Positions 2,804 to 47,021 of a DNA stretch of 64,000 bases are shown one piece after another. Below the pieces are notes generated by a model. The model had not been told where the DNA came from, made no database searches, and was given only the letters and a program-made list of their open reading frames with translations. A program made the translations under genes and the position numbers. Each line of letters begins with the position of its first letter. Positions within the stretch are counted from its first letter, which is position 1. Source of the stretch: Phreatobacter sp. (GTDB taxonomy: Bacteria > Pseudomonadota > Alphaproteobacteria > Rhizobiales > Phreatobacteraceae). The stretch is taken from assembly GCF_022843985.1 (NCBI RefSeq), contig NZ_JALHMP010000021.1, positions 1-64,000 of the forward strand, read 5' to 3'.

Positions 2804-3421
2804 ATGACTCGTCTCTCCCCCTGCGCATTCGCGATGCTCGCCGGCCTGCTGGCGGGCACGACGTGGCTGTCGGGCACCAGCCCCGCCGCCGCCGATCTTC
2901 GCCTCTGCAACACGACGCAGAGCCGCGTGGGCGTCGCCATCGGCTACAAGGACGGCGAGGGCTGGACCACCGAAGGCTGGTGGAACGTCCCGGCACGCTC
3001 CTGCGAGACCATCCTCCGGGGGCCGCTGGTCGCCCGCTACTACTATCTCTATGCCGTCGACTACGATCAAGGCGGGGAATGGTCAGGCCGGGCCTTCATG
3101 TGCTCGCGCGACAAGGAGTTCACCATCCGCGGCATCGAACAGTGCCTGGCCCGCGGCTATGACCGCCTCGGCTTCTTCGAGGTCGATACGCAAGACCAGC
3201 GGCAATGGACAGTGCAACTGACCGACGAGGGCCAGCGTCCGGCGCCGGCGGCCCCGCCCATGGCGGCGCCGGTCCCGCCGCCGGGTCCGGTGCGCCGGCC
3301 CGATCCGACGCCGGCCGCGTCGGGAACGCGCAGCACGCCGCTGCCCAATGCTCCCGCCGGATCGGGCGGCGCCGGGGCAGGCGTCCAGAGCGGCGTCCCG
3401 GCCTTCACCGCGCCGCGGTGA
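2804..3421 (+). CDS. Secreted DUF1036 protein
   Basis: 205 residues. Residues 1-30 form a signal peptide ending in PAAA before DLRLCN. The DUF1036 core follows (CNTTQSRVGVAIGYKDGEGW, then ARSCETILRGPL and YYYLYAVD), with four cysteines that could form disulfides in the periplasm. The last 60 residues are Pro/Ala/Gly-rich and probably disordered. DUF1036 proteins are common in Hyphomicrobiales and their function is not known. The gene stands alone, about 100 bp from each neighbour. Confidence 0.85.
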   Translation: MTRLSPCAFAMLAGLLAGTTWLSGTSPAAADLRLCNTTQSRVGVAIGYKDGEGWTTEGWWNVPARSCETILRGPLVARYYYLYAVDYDQGGEWSGRAFMCSRDKEFTIRGIEQCLARGYDRLGFFEVDTQDQRQWTVQLTDEGQRPAPAAPPMAAPVPPPGPVRRPDPTPAASGTRSTPLPNAPAGSGGAGAGVQSGVPAFTAPR

Positions 3422-3515
3422 TGCGGCGAAATTAGCCGCCACGTCTGCGTTGCAAGACCACGATCCATGCGCTACCCCACATGGATAGAATGGGCTGGCT
3501 TTCAGGAGTTGAACC

Positions 3516-3662
3516 ATGGCCTCCGAACCGCGAGTCGACGGCACCGCACCGATGGACTACCCCGAACACGAGCGCACCTATGCCTTCTTCGTCGGGTTGA
3601 CGAAATGGGGGACGATTTCCCTGGTTATCCTCATGATCCTGATGGCAATCTTTCTGCTCTGA
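3516..3662 (+). CDS. aa3-type cytochrome c oxidase subunit IV, small membrane protein
   Basis: A 48-residue protein beginning MASEPRVDGT with one C-terminal membrane helix (SLVILMILMAIFLL) preceded by YAFFVGLTKWG. This matches the bacterial COX4_pro_2 family, a one-helix accessory subunit of aa3 oxidase. A clear ribosome site CAGGAG (3503-3508) lies 7 bases before the ATG. It stands 102 bp before pntAA, away from any oxidase genes; this isolated position next to transhydrogenase genes is one I recall from related genomes. Confidence 0.85.
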   Translation: MASEPRVDGTAPMDYPEHERTYAFFVGLTKWGTISLVILMILMAIFLL

Positions 3663-3764
3663 CGGGTGACGCAAACCCGTTATCGAGGGGCAACGGGGGC
3701 CGCGACGACTGACATGACGCCCCTCGGAGCGGCCCGGCACAAGGGCGGACCGGAGGAGCATTCT

Positions 3765-4985
3765 ATGCGGATCGCGATCCCCAGGGAGACGGAGGCCGGC
3801 GAGCCGCGCGTCGCCGGCACGCCCGACACGGTGAAGCGCCTCATGGCGCTGGGGGCAGAGCTGGTCGTTGAACCGGGCGCGGGCCTCGATTCCGGTATCA
3901 TCGACGCGGATTACGCAGCGGTCGGCGCGACGCTCTCCGCCGATGCGGTAAAGGGCGCCGACGTGGTACTCAAGGTGCGCCGTCCGAGCGCCGCCGAACT
4001 CACGTCCTACAAGGCCGGTGCCGTGGTGCTCGCCACCATGGATCCCTATGGTAACGAGGCCGCCCTCGCCGCTATGGCGCAGGCCGGAATCGCCGCCTTC
4101 GCCATGGAACTGATGCCGCGCATCACCCGCGCCCAGGTGATGGACGTGCTGTCCAGCCAGGCGAACCTCGCCGGCTACCGCGCCGTGATCGATGGCGCCG
4201 GAGAGTTTGGCCGCGCCCTGCCGATGATGATGACCGCCGCCGGCACCGTCCCGGCCGCGAAGATCTTTGTGATGGGTGCCGGCGTTGCCGGGCTCCAGGC
4301 CATTGCCACGGCCCGCCGCCTCGGCGCGGTGGTGACGGCCACCGACGTGCGGCCTGCCGCCAAGGAGCAGGTGGAGAGCCTCGGCGCCAAGTTCGTCGCC
4401 GTCATGGACGACGAGTTCAAGCAGGCCGAGACGGCGGCAGGCTATGCCAAGCCGATGTCGGCCGAGTACCAGGCCAAGCAGGCGGCCCTCGTTGCCGAGC
4501 ACATTGCCAAGCAGGACATCGTCATCACCACGGCGCTGATCCCTGGCCGGGCCGCGCCGCGGCTCGTCACTGCCGCCATGGTGGCCTCGATGAAGGCCGG
4601 GTCTGTGCTGGTCGACCTCGCCGTCGAGCGGGGCGGCAATGTCGAGGGTGCCAAGGTCGGCGAGACGGTGGTCACTGCCAATGGCGCGAGGATCGTCGGC
4701 CATGCCAATGTGCCCGGACGCCTCGCGGCGACCTCCTCGGCGCTCTATGCGAAGAACCTCTTCTCCTTCCTTGAGATCATGATCGACAAGGCGTCGAAAT
4801 CGCTGGTCGTGCCGTGGGAGGACGAGCTGGTGAAGGCGACGCTGCTGACGCGCGATGGCGCCGTGGTCCATCCGAATTTCCAGTCGGTGGTGCCAGCGCC
4901 GCCGGCCGCCGCCGCAGCACCGGCGGCCGAGGATACGGCGCCGGCCAAGGCTAAGCCTGCGCCGAAGAAGTCCACCAAGGCCTGA
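3765..4985 (+). CDS. pntAA: NAD(P) transhydrogenase, NAD(H)-binding subunit alpha-1
   Basis: 406 residues. The protein opens MRIAIPRETEAGEPRVAGTP, the typical start of the alanine dehydrogenase/PntA family, and carries the NAD-binding Rossmann segment VMGAGVAGLQAIATARRLGA and the RAAPRLVTAAMVASMKAGSVLVD region. With the next two genes it forms the membrane enzyme that couples proton entry to hydride transfer from NADH to NADP+. The last 40 residues are an Ala/Pro/Lys-rich tail without known role. The start at 3765 is chosen for the CGGAGGAG ribosome site at 3751-3758 and the family N-terminus; the longer frame from 3666 is not conserved. Confidence 0.96.
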   Translation: MRIAIPRETEAGEPRVAGTPDTVKRLMALGAELVVEPGAGLDSGIIDADYAAVGATLSADAVKGADVVLKVRRPSAAELTSYKAGAVVLATMDPYGNEAALAAMAQAGIAAFAMELMPRITRAQVMDVLSSQANLAGYRAVIDGAGEFGRALPMMMTAAGTVPAAKIFVMGAGVAGLQAIATARRLGAVVTATDVRPAAKEQVESLGAKFVAVMDDEFKQAETAAGYAKPMSAEYQAKQAALVAEHIAKQDIVITTALIPGRAAPRLVTAAMVASMKAGSVLVDLAVERGGNVEGAKVGETVVTANGARIVGHANVPGRLAATSSALYAKNLFSFLEIMIDKASKSLVVPWEDELVKATLLTRDGAVVHPNFQSVVPAPPAAAAAPAAEDTAPAKAKPAPKKSTKA

Positions 4986-5000
4986 TCCGAGGGGAAACGA

Positions 5001-5483
5001 ATGACGACGCTGACGCCTGACCAGGCCCTCGAACGGGCCCGCGCCGCCGCCGAGGCCGCGCGCATCGCCGCCGAACAGGCGCGCCTCGCGGCCGAACAGG
5101 CCACCGCCGTGGCCGACCAGATCGCCACGGTGGCCGGCGCCGCGGTGCACAGCGCGACGGGCGGGGCCATCGACCCGACGGTCTTCCGGCTCACCATCTT
5201 CGCCCTTGCGGTTTTTGTCGGCTATTACGTGGTCTGGTCGGTGACGCCGGCCCTGCATACGCCGCTGATGTCGGTGACCAATGCCATCTCCTCCGTCATC
5301 GTCGTCGGTGCGCTGCTCGCCGTCGGCGTCCAGGTGATGGATTCCGGCACGGTCTGGGCGCGGATCTTCGGCTTCATCGGGCTCGTGCTCGCAGCGATCA
5401 ACATCTTCGGCGGCTTCCTCGTCACACAGCGCATGCTTGCGATGTACAAGGCGAAGGACAAGCCGGCGACGAGCAAGGGCTGA
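5001..5483 (+). CDS. pntAB: NAD(P) transhydrogenase membrane subunit alpha-2
   Basis: 160 residues. The first 50 form an Ala-rich amphipathic helix ([20 protein letters not shown]) that is longer than the short N-terminus of most PntAB proteins. Membrane helices follow from about residue 65 ([20 protein letters not shown]), including the conserved [15 protein letters not shown] segment of the proton channel. It starts 15 bp after pntAA and ends 4 bp before pntB, so the three genes are one operon. Confidence 0.94.
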
Positions 5484-5487
5484 ACCC

Positions 5488-6891
5488 ATGTCGGCAAATC
5501 TCGCAGCCCTTCTCTATCTCCTCGCCGGCGTCCTGTTCATTCTGAGCCTCAGGGGCCTGTCCAGCCCGGCCTCCTCGCGGCAGGGCAACCTCTTTGGCAT
5601 GGTCGGCATGACCATCGCCGTGCTGACGACGCTCGCCTATGCGCGGCCGTCCGGGATCGGCGCCTGGATCCTCGTCCTCGCCGGCCTCGGCATCGGCGGC
5701 GGCATCGGTGCGGTCATCGCCCGCCGCGTGCCCATGACGTCGATGCCACAGCTCGTGGCCGCCTTCCATTCGGGCGTTGGTCTCGCCGCTGTCTTCGTCG
5801 CCGCCGCCGCGCTCTATGCGCCGACGGCTTTCGACATCGGCGCCCGCGGCGCGATCAAGGGCCTGTCGCTGTTCGAGATGGGCCTCGGCGCCGCCATCGG
5901 CGCGATCACCTTCACCGGCTCGGTCATCGCCTTCCTGAAGCTCGACGGGCGGATGAGCGGCAAGCCGATCATGCTGCCGCAGCGCCATCTCATCAACATT
6001 GCCCTGGCCGCGGCCATCATCGTGCTGATGATCGTCTTCATGCGGACGGAGAGCACGCTCGCCTTCTGGCTGATCGTGATCCTCGCCTTCGTCGTCGGCG
6101 TGACGCTGATCATCCCGATCGGCGGCGCCGACATGCCGGTCGTCGTGTCGATGCTCAATTCCTATTCGGGCTGGGCGGCGGCGGGCATCGGCTTCACGCT
6201 GGGCAACACGGCGCTGATCATCACCGGCGCCCTGGTGGGCTCGTCGGGCGCGATCCTGTCCTACATCATGTGCAAGGCGATGAACCGGTCCTTCATCTCC
6301 GTCATTCTCGGTGGCTTCGGCGGCGATGATGCGGCGGCGGGCGGATCAGCCGAAGCGCGCCCCTTCAAGGCGGGTTCGGCGGAGGACGCCGCCTATATTA
6401 TGAAAAACGCCCAGAAGGTCATCATCGTGCCGGGCTACGGCATGGCGGTGGCACAGGCCCAGCACGCCCTGCGCGAGATGGCCGACCTCCTGAAGAAGGA
6501 GGGCGTCGAGGTGAAATATGCCATCCACCCGGTGGCCGGCCGCATGCCCGGGCACATGAACGTGCTCCTCGCCGAGGCCAACGTGCCCTATGACGAGGTC
6601 TTCGAGCTCGAGGATATCAACTCCGAATTCGCCCAGGCCGACGTCGCCTTCGTCATCGGCGCCAATGACGTGACCAACCCGGCGGCGAAGACCGACAAGA
6701 CCTCGCCGATCTATGGCATGCCCATCCTCGACGTGGAGAAGGCTGGCAACATCCTGTTCGTCAAGCGTGGCATGGGCGGCGTCGGCTATGCCGGCATCGA
6801 CAACGACGTTTTCTACCGCGACAACACGATGATGTTGCTCGCCGACGCCAAGAAGATGGTGGAGAACATCGTCAAGGCGCTGGGGCATTGA
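5488..6891 (+). CDS. pntB: NAD(P) transhydrogenase subunit beta, NADP(H)-binding
   Basis: 467 residues. The N-terminal two thirds are membrane helices with channel segments such as MPQLVAAFHSGVGLAAVFVA and ADMPVVVSMLNSYSGWAAAG. The C-terminal soluble NADP(H) domain contains VPGYGMAVAQAQHALREM, HPVAGRMPGHMNVLLAEANV, FVIGANDVTNPAA and the final GYAGIDNDVFY stretch. Together with PntAA and PntAB it makes NADPH for biosynthesis and redox defence. A good terminator follows at 6940-6971. Confidence 0.96.
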   Translation: MSANLAALLYLLAGVLFILSLRGLSSPASSRQGNLFGMVGMTIAVLTTLAYARPSGIGAWILVLAGLGIGGGIGAVIARRVPMTSMPQLVAAFHSGVGLAAVFVAAAALYAPTAFDIGARGAIKGLSLFEMGLGAAIGAITFTGSVIAFLKLDGRMSGKPIMLPQRHLINIALAAAIIVLMIVFMRTESTLAFWLIVILAFVVGVTLIIPIGGADMPVVVSMLNSYSGWAAAGIGFTLGNTALIITGALVGSSGAILSYIMCKAMNRSFISVILGGFGGDDAAAGGSAEARPFKAGSAEDAAYIMKNAQKVIIVPGYGMAVAQAQHALREMADLLKKEGVEVKYAIHPVAGRMPGHMNVLLAEANVPYDEVFELEDINSEFAQADVAFVIGANDVTNPAAKTDKTSPIYGMPILDVEKAGNILFVKRGMGGVGYAGIDNDVFYRDNTMMLLADAKKMVENIVKALGH

Positions 6892-25347: not shown

Positions 25348-26049
25348 TCAGGCCGGGATGCGTTCCTCGGCTTCGGTCGGCTCGCGCAGCACATAACCGC
25401 GGCCCCAGACGGTCTCGATGTAGTTCTTGCCGTCGGAGGCATTGGCGAGCTTCTTGCGCAGCTTGCAGATGAAGACGTCGATGATCTTCAGCTCGGGCTC
25501 GTCCATGCCGCCATAGAGATGGTTCAGGAACATTTCCTTGGTCAGGGTCGTGCCCTTGCGCAGCGAAAGGAGCTCCAGCATCTGGTACTCCTTGCCGGTG
25601 AGGTGGACACGCTGGCCCGACACTTCAACCGTCTTCTGGTCGAGATTGACCAGGAGGTCGCCGGTGGTGATGACCGACTGGGCGTGGCCCTTCGAGCGGC
25701 GCACGATGGCATGGATGCGGGCGACGAGCTCGTCCTTGTGGAAGGGCTTGGTCAGATAGTCATCGGCGCCGAAGCCGAGGCCGCGGACCTTGTCCTCGAT
25801 GCCGGCCAGGCCGGAGAGGATCAGGATGGGCGTCTTGACCTTGGCCACGCGAAGCGACTTCAGCACTTCGTAGCCCGACATGTCGGGCAGGTTCAGGTCG
25901 AGAAGAATGATGTCGTAATCGTAGAGCTTGCCGAGGTCGATCCCTTCCTCGCCGAGGTCCGTCGTATAGACGTTGAAGCTCTCGGACTTGAGCATCAGCT
26001 CGATGCTCTTCGCAGTGGCGCTGTCATCTTCGATCAACAGAACGCGCAT
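25348..26049 (-). CDS. ctrA: Master cell-cycle response regulator CtrA
   Basis: 233 residues, matching CtrA nearly throughout. The receiver begins [20 protein letters not shown] with acceptor D51 in [14 protein letters not shown]; the OmpR-type winged helix domain contains [20 protein letters not shown] and [19 protein letters not shown]. CtrA activates flagellar, chemotaxis and division genes and can silence the replication origin. Phosphate comes through ChpT, encoded at 10.1 kb. The C-terminus ends EAEERIPA, lacking the Ala-Ala end by which Caulobacter CtrA is degraded. The ATG at 26049 is chosen because AAGGGG lies at proper distance; another ATG is two codons upstream. Confidence 0.97.
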
Positions 26050-26299: not shown

Positions 26300-26593
26300 C
26301 GGGTCCTGCCTTTCCGCGACCAGGGTCCGCAGTGGGTCGTTCCAAACGAACCCCTCACGGTCACGGATGCCTTTTAATCGGCTGCTAGGGATCATTAACG
26401 GGCCGGGTTAAGGAAGGGTTACCCGACAGGGCGCAATCCGGGCGGCGGTTGCCTTTACTTTGACTCGCATTGGCCCGTGATCGTTAAACTTCGGCGGTTT
26501 CGGAGCCCCGTCGCGGCGGCTGAAGGCTCCTATCGGCAGCTCTGCGGGGAAGGGGCGTGAGCGGCCGATGGGCAGCTTCTACCGGGCTCATGG

Positions 26594-43262: not shown

Positions 43263-45575
43263 ATGGCGTTCGTTCAGGGCAAGTCATCGAGCGACATGAT
43301 GCGCGAACTGCCCGTCGAAATTTATGTTTCGATGGTCGACTCGCTCTACGAGGACGTGCGCTCGCTGCTGCTCGGCGTGGTCGCGGCCCTGGCCGGGACC
43401 ATCTACACCGCGCACCTGACCGGGCACCCTGTGCTCATCGCCTTTCCCTTCGCCGTCGCGTTGATCGGCTTTGTGCGCACGCTTCGGATGCTGGCCTATC
43501 GACGCGTGCGTGCCGACGTCGTCACCCATGAACAGGCACTCCGCTGGGAGCGCGAATATACGATCGGCGCCAATCTCTTGGTCTTCACGATCGGACTGTG
43601 GTGCTTCGCAACCTTCAATCTGACCCAGTCCATGGCCGCTCACCTGTTCTGCGTGTCGGTCGCACTGTCCTACATGGTCGGGGTCACCGGTCGGAATTTC
43701 GCCAACGGCCCCTTCGTCGACAACCAGATCGCCCTGCTCTGCGCCCCGCTGGTGGTGGGCATGATGATGACAGGCGTGTGGGACTACATGGTCCTCGCCT
43801 GTTTCGCGATTCCCTTCTTCGGCAGCGTCCGCAGCATCGCCCGCCGGCTTCGCGAGATCCTCCTCAACGCCATCATCGCCAAGCGCGACGTGTCACTTCT
43901 CGCCGACCGGTTCGACACCGCCCTCAACAACATGCCGCATGGTCTCGCCATGTTCGATGCCGAAGGACGCCTGGTGGTGGTCAACCGGCGCTGGGCGCAG
44001 ATTCTGCCGCTCGACCCCGACAGCCTCGCGCAAGGCGCCCGCGTCGAGGCGATCGTCGCCGCCTATGTCGATCTGGGCATCCTCGGCGAGCGTGACGCCG
44101 GCCGGGTCCTCGACGCGGTGGCACGCCGCGTTCACGGACGGACGCGCGAACAATTCGAACTCCAGGCCAATGGCTGGAATGTCGACCTTACCTTCCAGCC
44201 GATGGAAACGGGCGGCCTTGTCGTCGCCATCGAGGACATCACCGAAAAGCGGCGCACCGAGGCACGGATCGCCCATATGGCGCGCCATGATGCCCTTACC
44301 GGCCTGCCGAACCGCTCGCTGTTCCAAGAGCGTCTGGAGACGGCCCTCGCCCTGACCACCGACGAGGACATGCTCGCGGTGCTCTTCGTCGATCTCGACC
44401 ATTTCCAGCAGGTCAACGACACGCTCGGCCACACGGCTGGTGATGCGCTTCTCGTGGAAGTCGCCGACCGCCTGCGCTTCGCCGTGGGGGAGAACGACCT
44501 CGTGGCCCGTTTCGGCGCCGACGAGTTCGTCATCCTCCAGAGCGGCGCGCGCAGCGTCAACGACGTCACGACGCTGGCGGCGCGGATCATCGAGACCGTC
44601 GCCGACATCTCTCAGATCGACGACAAGCCGATCGCCAGCGGGGCGTCGGTGGGCATCGCGCTGGCGCCGCGCGACGGGCGCGAGCCGGATCAGTTGCTGA
44701 AGAGTGCCGACATGGCGCTGAGCCGCGCCAAGGCGGGTGGCCGGGGCATCCTGCACTTCTATGAAGAGGAAATGGATCGTCAGGCCCAGGCGCGCCGGGC
44801 CATCGAGATGGATCTGCGGAAGGCGATCCAGAACGAGGAACTGGCGGTCTATTTCCAGCCCATGCTCAATCTCAAGTCGCTGTCCATCTCGACCTGCGAG
44901 GCCCTCGTGCGATGGCCTCATCGGATCCGCGGCATGATTTCTCCGGCGGAGTTCATTCCGGTGGCCGAGGAAACCGGGCTGATCATCGAACTCGGCCGTC
45001 AGGTGCTGCGCAAGGCCTGCCAGGCCTGCGTCGCTTGGCCTGACCGGATCCGTGTATCCGTCAACCTGTCCTCCGTGCAGTTCGAGCGGGACGATGTGGT
45101 GGCCCTGGTCGCCGAGACCCTGAGAACGACTGGGCTCGAACCCGACCGCCTCGAACTCGAGATCACCGAGACCTTGCTGCTGCAGGATTCGGAGGGCGTC
45201 CTGTCCGTCTTGGCGCAGTTGCGCGCGATGGGCGTCAGGCTGGCGCTCGACGATTTCGGCACGGGCTATTCGAGCCTGAGCTATCTGCACAAATTCCCGC
45301 TGGACAAGGTCAAGATCGATCGCTCCTTCGTCCGCAACATCACCAGCGACCGCAAGGCCGCCAAGCTGCTGCGCGGCGTGACGCGGCTGGGATCCGAACT
45401 TGGCCTTTCGGTGGTCGTCGAAGGCGTCGAGACGCTCGAACAGCTGAAGATGATCGACGCGCCGGGTGTCGTCGGCGAGGTTCAGGGCTTTGTCCTCAGC
45501 CCCGCCATTCCCGATGGCCAGCTGAGGGCCCTGATGGGCCGGTCCGGCAAGGATCTTCTGGCGCGCGCCGCCTGA
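43263..45575 (+). CDS. GGDEF-EAL protein with a GADEF variant
   Basis: 770 residues. Two N-terminal membrane parts (residues 25-85, 105-190), a PAS-like segment (FDTALNNMPHGLAMFDAEGR), a GGDEF domain and an EAL domain. The cyclase motif is GADEF (residues 418-422), and the RxxD inhibition site before it is missing. The EAL domain is intact: E546-A547-L548 in CEALVRWPH, the ITETLLL strand and DDFGTGYSSLSYLHKFPLDK. It is therefore probably a c-di-GMP phosphodiesterase with an altered GGDEF domain. The ATG at 43263 is inferred; no strong ribosome site is visible. Confidence 0.88.
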   Translation: MAFVQGKSSSDMMRELPVEIYVSMVDSLYEDVRSLLLGVVAALAGTIYTAHLTGHPVLIAFPFAVALIGFVRTLRMLAYRRVRADVVTHEQALRWEREYTIGANLLVFTIGLWCFATFNLTQSMAAHLFCVSVALSYMVGVTGRNFANGPFVDNQIALLCAPLVVGMMMTGVWDYMVLACFAIPFFGSVRSIARRLREILLNAIIAKRDVSLLADRFDTALNNMPHGLAMFDAEGRLVVVNRRWAQILPLDPDSLAQGARVEAIVAAYVDLGILGERDAGRVLDAVARRVHGRTREQFELQANGWNVDLTFQPMETGGLVVAIEDITEKRRTEARIAHMARHDALTGLPNRSLFQERLETALALTTDEDMLAVLFVDLDHFQQVNDTLGHTAGDALLVEVADRLRFAVGENDLVARFGADEFVILQSGARSVNDVTTLAARIIETVADISQIDDKPIASGASVGIALAPRDGREPDQLLKSADMALSRAKAGGRGILHFYEEEMDRQAQARRAIEMDLRKAIQNEELAVYFQPMLNLKSLSISTCEALVRWPHRIRGMISPAEFIPVAEETGLIIELGRQVLRKACQACVAWPDRIRVSVNLSSVQFERDDVVALVAETLRTTGLEPDRLELEITETLLLQDSEGVLSVLAQLRAMGVRLALDDFGTGYSSLSYLHKFPLDKVKIDRSFVRNITSDRKAAKLLRGVTRLGSELGLSVVVEGVETLEQLKMIDAPGVVGEVQGFVLSPAIPDGQLRALMGRSGKDLLARAA

Positions 45576-45911: not shown

Positions 45912-45943
45912 GATTCTGCGACCGCATTAACGATGATTTAACC
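45912..45943. promoter_or_regulatory. GANTC site and perfect CtrA box
   Basis: GATTC at 45912-45916, then TTAA at 45927-45930, seven bases, and TTAACC at 45938-45943, an exact TTAA-N7-TTAACC. They lie 84-115 bp upstream of the FeeM-like start. Binding is inferred from the consensus. Confidence 0.6.
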
Positions 45944-46026
45944 AAACACTTCCCACCGGGTAAAAAAGCATTAACATCAATCGCACGTTAGCAGCGGGTG
46001 TGAACGCTTCTCGTGGGGCATGGCAG

Positions 46027-46758
46027 ATGACGACGGTGAATGCCGAGGGCTCGTTTTCACGGAACGTCGCTGATCTCATCGGCCGGATCGCCTACCGGCG
46101 GATCCAGTCGGACGAGGACCGCAGCGCCGTCTTTCGCCTGCGATACGAGTGCTACCTGCGCGAGGGGGCGATCGCACCGAACGCGACGGGCCTGTTCGAG
46201 GATGATTTCGACAGCGCTCCAAACGTCTCGATTTTCGGGCTCTATATCGACGGTGTCCTCGCCAGTTCCATCCGTGTGCACGTGGCGACCGCGGAGATGC
46301 CTTTCGCGCCCGCCCTGGCCGTTTTCAGTGACATCCTCGGCGCCCGCATCGCTGCCGGGGAGACCATCGTCGACCCGACCCGCTTTGTCGTTGACCAGGA
46401 ATTCTCGCGACTCTACCCGGGGCTGCCCTATGCGACCGTGCGCATGGGCATGCTGGCCTCCGAACATGCCGATGCAGACTATGCCCTGGCCACGGTCAGG
46501 ACCGAGCACAGGGCCTTCTACCGCCGCCTGCTGTTCATGGAACCGGTGGGCGAGCCGCGCCTCTATCCGAACCTGAAGAGCCCCATCAACCTGATGGGCG
46601 TGTCCTTTCCGTTGATGCGGCAAAGGGTCTACAGTCGCTATCCGTTCATGGCGTCGTCACGGGAAGAGCAGGATCGCCTGTTCGGGCCGCGCCGTCCTCG
46701 CGCCCCCCGGCGCGACCATGTCGCGGTGCCGGCGGCCGGAGAAGCCGCTGCCGCCTGA
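46027..46758 (+). CDS. N-acyl amino acid synthase FeeM / autoinducer-synthase-like acyltransferase
   Basis: 243 residues. YRRIQSDEDRSAVFRLRYEC, then FGLYIDGVLASSIRVHVA and DPTRFVVDQEFSRLYPG match the fold of FeeM-like N-acyl amino acid synthases and of LuxI-type autoinducer synthases (R-x-x-V/F-R-x-R-Y, then E-D-x-F-D-x). The C-terminus (after about 200) is basic and Pro/Ala-rich. It would join an acyl chain from acyl-ACP to an amino acid or amine. The ATG at 46027 follows a GTGGGG tract; a GTG at 46000 is possible. A perfect CtrA box lies upstream. Confidence 0.75.
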   Translation: MTTVNAEGSFSRNVADLIGRIAYRRIQSDEDRSAVFRLRYECYLREGAIAPNATGLFEDDFDSAPNVSIFGLYIDGVLASSIRVHVATAEMPFAPALAVFSDILGARIAAGETIVDPTRFVVDQEFSRLYPGLPYATVRMGMLASEHADADYALATVRTEHRAFYRRLLFMEPVGEPRLYPNLKSPINLMGVSFPLMRQRVYSRYPFMASSREEQDRLFGPRRPRAPRRDHVAVPAAGEAAAA

Positions 46759-46778
46759 AACGTCGGGAGGCGATGGCG

Positions 46779-47021
46779 ATGAGATCCGGCAGCCGCAAGC
46801 CTTTCGATGCCTTCCGCCGCGCGCCGGGATCCGGAAACCGCGCCTCGGACGGTTGGAAACGCGAAACCTTCGTGCTGCCGCTGGATGTGGCCCGCATCAA
46901 GGCGCGGGAAATCCTGGATCGCTTTCCCCGCGCCGCCTATCTGACCGAGGTCGAGTTCTGGCGGGAACTCGATGACGGTCGCATCGAATTCACGATGCGC
47001 CGCCTTCCGACAGCGGACTAA
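46779..47021 (+). CDS. Small conserved-looking protein of unknown function
   Basis: 80 residues, beginning MRSGSRKPFDAFRRAPGSGN. The second half (FVLPLDVARIKAREILDRFP, then TEVEFWRELDDGRIEFTMRR) looks like a folded alpha/beta unit with strong coding bias. GGGAGG lies eight bases before the ATG at 46779, which is why I chose it over 46773. It starts 20 bp after the FeeM-like gene and probably is cotranscribed with it. Confidence 0.65.
   Translation: MRSGSRKPFDAFRRAPGSGNRASDGWKRETFVLPLDVARIKAREILDRFPRAAYLTEVEFWRELDDGRIEFTMRRLPTAD

Follow-up and report, generated by a model that had tools for sequence, protein, structure and literature searches.

The locus examined here lies in a 64-kb window (the whole stretch of DNA that was analysed) and comprises a gene for a FeeM-family acyltransferase of 243 aa (46027..46758, forward strand), a promoter region with two CtrA-type boxes and, directly upstream on the same strand, a gene for a 770-aa membrane protein with PAS, GGDEF and EAL domains (43263..45575), hereafter the partner. 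The gene family and the first box had been recognized in the first-pass annotation, while the second box and the partner were overlooked, and the partner is the best clue to the function of the FeeM gene. The acyltransferase matched the Pfam FeeM model PF21926 (E = 7.6e-46; 156.2 bits against a cut-off of 27), and at E values up to 1 this was the only Pfam family found, with no match to the autoinducer synthase family PF00765. Its start is very likely ATG at 46027 and not the GTG at 46000 originally proposed, because 12/12 genomes of the genus share the N-terminal pattern M-[TNI]-T-[VA]-N. For the predicted structure (pLDDT 88.3), FeeM 2G0B held Foldseek ranks 1 to 6 and was the nearest structure in VIA-align (Z 20.1; 178 residues superposed at rmsd 2.9), such that the enzyme falls closest to FeeM and not to an ordinary GNAT. 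FeeM was reached by fold only: PDB sequence searches with the enzyme did not have 2G0B among their matches, and the two share ~19–20% sequence identity. Residues D59, D62, R83, D116 and R119 are invariant in 15 homologues. Directly downstream, an 82-aa open reading frame (46773..47021, forward strand) may be a third gene of the locus in some members of the genus: of three other genus loci inspected, two (G007 and G006) have a relative after FeeM and G008 does not. A Pfam search assigned it to no family and gave at most a sub-threshold match at E up to 1.

Box 1, TTAA-N7-TTAACC (TTAACGATGATTTAACC; 45927..45943, forward strand), matches exactly the CtrA consensus TTAA-N7-TTAAC, which derives from ChIP-seq in another alphaproteobacterium (PMC7200025). 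The first-pass claim of a perfect box was confirmed, as the exact pattern occurs once in the window and in none of 100 shuffled versions (0/100), and box 1 is far from a chance occurrence. Box 2, GTAA-N7-TTAAC (GTAAAAAAGCATTAAC; 45960..45975, forward strand), has one mismatch in the window. Read from the sequence, a putative promoter (45938..45966, forward strand) pairs the downstream half-site of box 1, TTAACC, as −35 with TAAAAA, which lies within box 2, as −10 over a 17-bp spacer. The spacing from TTAACC at box 1 to the second hexamer is identical across the genus alignment, with TAAAAA or TAAAAT in second place (for L011, where the script's first match was a different TTAACC, the spacing was taken from the printed alignment). 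Because a sigma-70 consensus scan of this promoter region called no promoter, we treat the pair as a candidate only. CtrA would thereby sit over the −35 element, a layout that is known from CtrA-activated promoters.

A GANTC site before box 1 had also been singled out, and GATTC is indeed present at 45912..45916 on the forward strand, but it is found at this place in only one of the 12 genus promoters; two further promoters carry one 19 bp ahead of the ATG, and the remaining nine have none within 200 bp. Since the site is not conserved in the genus, control of the FeeM gene through GANTC and CcrM was dropped, and the site is probably incidental. GANTC is strongly depleted over the window as a whole (92 observed, 321 expected). 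The gene for CtrA itself lies in the same window (25348..26049, reverse strand, coding range checked), and its 233-aa product shares 84% identity with a 201-residue stretch of Caulobacter CtrA. Six GANTC sites are located 130–250 bp before the ctrA ATG, as expected if CcrM times ctrA transcription. Upstream of the gene there are also CtrA-like boxes with one mismatch, at 26407, 26593 and 26705.

Conservation of the boxes was assessed within the genus and across the order. Among 61 genomes in an initial search, 16 carried the FeeM gene, including 12/12 of the genus. In these 12, box 1 is exact throughout, ~100 bp before the FeeM ATG, and box 2 is retained with at most one mismatch (12/12; exact in 6/12), always 33 bp from box 1. 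When the promoters of the 12 genomes are aligned, every half-site position of box 1 is invariant (10/10), compared to 4/59 columns in the upstream flank and 4/50 in the downstream flank. An alignment of 15 FeeM homologues was then run against 199 genomes of the order and gave matches in 36 at E ≤ 0.001, 30 of them strong (E ≤ 3.0e-64). These 30 genomes and four further genus members from the 61-genome search supplied 34 orthologue promoters, while six weak matches were left out (E 5.5e-18 to 8.9e-4; G064, G152, G012, G184, G022 and G046).

Within 200 bp of promoter sequence, a CtrA box was found in 33/34 orthologues at one mismatch or fewer and in 22/34 as an exact match, against 14/489 and 1/489 background promoters from five genomes of five families (taken from genes found by a heuristic caller and preceded by intergenic space of 100 bp or more). 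The difference was similar outside the genus (21/22 and 10/22 in orthologue promoters; 9/310 and 1/310 in background). Fisher values for the enrichment were below 1e-11, but the loci are related by descent, and the safer statement is therefore that all six families show the box; the exact consensus recurs across these six families at differing positions. Presence of the box in orthologous promoters, which the first-pass annotation had suggested as a check on its reading, is therefore borne out. As a matched control, the partner gene's own promoters at the same loci had a box in 2/18 cases at one mismatch or fewer and in 0/18 as an exact match (20 were taken, of which L144 was too short and L148 had a miscalled start). 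The G200 orthologue promoter contained no box within one mismatch, nor was one found in the promoter of the distant G012 homologue (26% identity), the sole left-out weak match inspected. In 288 genomes drawn over the class, of which G000 and at least three others belong to the same order, a strong FeeM match occurred in G000 only, with two weak matches in the reduced 0.9-Mb genomes G268 and G373 (E 7.6e-5 and 3.7e-5; L164 and L165).

The partner gene (Pfam EAL, GGDEF and PAS_7) has an unsure start codon, its reading frame being open from TTG 43182. In the structure model the N-terminal part forms six predicted transmembrane helices, and a Foldseek search of this membrane domain against solved folds returned no match at E ≤ 0.001, which does not imply a new fold. 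The window partner has a degenerate GADEF in place of GGDEF, with intact EAL motifs. Across 20 partners the corresponding motif is GGDEF in 14, GADEF in four and MGDQF in two, and EAL and DDFGTG are kept in 20/20, on which basis the partner probably hydrolyses c-di-GMP.

Association between the two genes is tight. A partner of ~770 aa was called directly upstream on the same strand in 18/20 loci with FeeM called and was located there by coordinates in the other two, and no other cluster of neighbours exceeded 5/20 FeeM loci. Strong matches to the N-terminal membrane part (E ≤ 2.8e-71) were confined to exactly the 30 of 199 genomes that have FeeM, and in 30/30 the two genes are adjacent on the same contig and strand, 2.4–2.8 kb apart. 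The C-terminal part of the partner is also found directly upstream of FeeM in the four extra genus genomes. The membrane-part search matched 67 genomes at E ≤ 0.001, of which we used these 30 and a further 12 (E 1.0e-59 to 1.8e-31); five loci with weaker matches were inspected. In G007 (L191), two membrane GGDEF proteins of 409 aa (3350-4579) and 403 aa (4697-5908) are encoded in tandem, and the first was matched by the partner membrane-domain profile.

The 12 further genomes carry a less similar relative of the partner and no FeeM, and a FeeM profile search of the 12 loci gave no match. Instead, the relative adjoins an RpfF-like crotonase in 11/11 readable loci, the twelfth being cut by a contig end. 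Eight of these 11 proteins were profile-tested; all eight scored above the curated cut-off of PRK08788 and matched the RpfF equivalog model at E = 4e-48 or better, yet below its cut-off, and the remaining three are 82–93% identical to tested ones. In PDB searches with two of the eight, the best four matches of each were 7zq7 (crotonase-family), 3m6m (RpfF), 5fus (putative enoyl-CoA hydratase) and 6dgn (RpfF). A CtrA-like box is present in 5/5 RpfF promoters of family f28, two of them exact, and in two of the six RpfF promoters from other families, with a mismatch, the other four having no box.

In a tree of the partner relatives, f28 joins f29 and two f16 rows (91/91) inside a group that includes the FeeM-paired proteins (99/93). 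A single clade of FeeM-paired rows was not rejected, however (AU p = 0.356), and we abandoned the idea that f28 came by its RpfF pairing from within the FeeM-paired group. Because of this value and a poor outgroup, whose rows are long-branched and do not form one side of any branch, our claim is limited to at least one exchange: FeeM and RpfF-like synthases appear to have replaced one another beside the partner lineage at least once. Three more distant relatives of 620–670 aa (L187, L188 and L189) lack the PAS domain and are followed by a gene with the aspartate/ornithine carbamoyltransferase fold. Pairing with an enzyme that is not an acyl synthase counts against a signal-receptor reading of the partner, although the joint absence of PAS domain and acyl enzyme at these three loci would fit a PAS that senses an acyl group.

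These results resemble a known arrangement. According to PMC6361424, the PAS domain of RpfR binds the fatty-acyl signal BDSF, raising phosphodiesterase activity, and RpfF is encoded next to RpfR; a review places the BDSF–RpfR system in Beta- and Gammaproteobacteria (PMC8846402). As in RpfF/RpfR of Burkholderia and Cronobacter, a gene for a fatty-acyl signal synthase would here stand beside a PAS-GGDEF-EAL gene, and in the sister loci the membrane protein does have an RpfF-like gene as its neighbour, in several cases oriented convergently as in rpfF/rpfR. The differences are that the synthase is of FeeM type and not a crotonase, with RpfF-like genes in the FeeM-less sister loci only, that the partner has six helices and a PAS_7 domain where RpfR has an RpfF-binding domain and a PAS, that the FeeM promoter bears CtrA boxes, and that the lineage is Hyphomicrobiales. 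With its membrane-bound, RpfR-like design and an RpfF-like or FeeM-like neighbour, the partner is best read as a fatty-acyl signal receptor, and the FeeM-like enzyme is by analogy best explained as the synthase of that signal.

The FeeM gene and its partner look like an undescribed signal-receptor pair timed by the cell cycle. The enzyme would most likely take a fatty acyl chain from acyl-ACP (or acyl-CoA) and attach it to an amino acid, giving an N-acyl amino acid that could diffuse or dissolve in membranes. Binding of phosphorylated CtrA to box 1, over the −35, would induce the gene during the cell-cycle phase in which CtrA is active, and box 2, over the −10 and the start region, may cap output. 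The partner would sense the product, either directly through its PAS domain or by way of its membrane helices, and its EAL domain would then alter c-di-GMP hydrolysis, whichever way the response may run. The pair could by this route let motility, attachment or division respond to the cell-cycle state or to cell number. We are evenly divided over whether the locus indeed encodes an N-acyl-amino-acid signal synthase under CtrA timing together with a dedicated c-di-GMP effector, in the manner of RpfF/RpfR. More tentatively, and at somewhat under even confidence, we suggest that this is a separate Hyphomicrobiales module of CtrA-timed FeeM synthase and membrane receptor, in a lineage that uses FeeM and RpfF synthases interchangeably and can place either under CtrA. 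As a PAS_7 match, the PAS domain of the partner may bind a different ligand, and the conserved adjacency could reflect shared timing instead of signal and receptor.

The most serious competing explanation is that the N-acyl amino acid made by the enzyme is destined for the envelope, as an aminolipid or surfactant used in division or pole building, with CtrA timing its supply and the neighbour either regulating something else or tuning the same envelope process. In family f35, the FeeM-partner pair sits between tolB and pal in a tolQ-tolR-tolB ... pal-ftsH cluster (Pfam assignments in G045, L136), an order repeated in G169 and G190 (L137 and L138), which places the pair among tol-pal envelope and division genes. 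Formation of an acyl amino acid is moreover the first step of aminolipid synthesis (PMC11631085). The tol-pal position is, however, found in one family only, and casual inspection of the genes next to FeeM showed no second acyltransferase of the PlsC type. That the partner lineage has an RpfF-like gene in place of FeeM in some genomes favours signalling over envelope supply, and we consider the envelope explanation unlikely.

Proximity to the autoinducer synthases raises a second alternative, in which the enzyme is an unorthodox SAM-using synthase of the homoserine-lactone type and the signal is AHL-like. After FeeM, the next structures in VIA-align included RpaI (Z 16.8) and TofI (Z 16.6), a weak TofI profile alignment (E 0.11) pairs D59/D62, R83 and R119 of the enzyme, and luxI genes are already known to be under CtrA control (PMC4046655). 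Yet Pfam gave FeeM alone, and ordinary GNATs also reach 16 (Z 16.5 for one), so that the difference between 20.1 and 16.5–16.8 supports a FeeM fold with AHL synthases and GNATs nearby; we regard an AHL-like signal as rather improbable.

The luxI genes nevertheless bear on how new the regulatory link is. According to PMC4046655, CtrA-phosphorelay mutants of Dinoroseobacter shibae lose luxI2 and luxI3 expression, the luxR2I2 promoter has putative CtrA sites, and CtrA sites at pfam00765/pfam03475 genes are scattered in a survey of 89 genomes; CtrA control over luxI in Dinoroseobacter has further precedent (PMC6473078). The two systems would share an acyl-signal synthase driven by the CtrA phosphorelay through putative promoter sites, but the D. 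shibae enzymes are LuxI-type AHL synthases working with LuxR receptors, and the scattered sites of that survey contrast with a box in nearly all FeeM orthologue promoters here. The suggestion that an acyl-signal maker would be a novel CtrA target consequently gives way to the luxI precedent in its general form and may stand for FeeM-type enzymes, none of which was linked with CtrA or c-di-GMP by any paper that our search of the open literature turned up. Relative to FeeM and related N-acyl amino acid synthases from soil DNA, the enzyme shares the Pfam family and the closest fold, and differs in its low identity to 2G0B, its c-di-GMP neighbour and its CtrA boxes.

We give very little weight to a third alternative, that the TTAA repeats serve another regulator or RNA polymerase alone and that CtrA is uninvolved. 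The role of CtrA at the boxes is a prediction from sequence, and conservation of box 2 has a second explanation because this box coincides with the putative −10. A non-CtrA origin is harder to reconcile with an exact CtrA consensus that recurs in six families at differing positions, and with the company that the pattern keeps in this genome, where it occurs beside flagellar and chemotaxis genes. Exact boxes were found at 15 distinct places genome-wide (20 hits when counted by strand, compared with 4 for the reversed pattern), next to genes for an MCP chemoreceptor, a flagellar rod protein, FlgI, an Amidase_3 protein and a sigma-54 response regulator, among others that are unremarkable, such as a SnoaL-like gene and an ETF-QO gene. 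Least probable of all is that the acyltransferase modifies a protein or other acceptor with no signalling role, as has been suggested for exosortase-linked relatives: N-acyl amino acid synthases are reportedly linked to PEP-CTERM/exosortase systems, going by the title of one paper, but we rejected such a link for the FeeM gene as exosortase (PF09721) was missing from all of the genomes searched (0/12), a further difference from FeeM and its relatives, and the NCBIfam exosortase-acyltransferase model did not match the enzyme at E up to 1.

If the locus does encode a CtrA-timed synthase and its c-di-GMP effector, FeeM-type N-acyl amino acids would gain a concrete signalling job together with a candidate receptor, and CtrA boxes on the synthase gene would confine signal making to one phase of the cell cycle. 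One receptor family would then be served by two unrelated signal synthases, and the alphaproteobacterial cell-cycle regulator would be tied to c-di-GMP via a small molecule.
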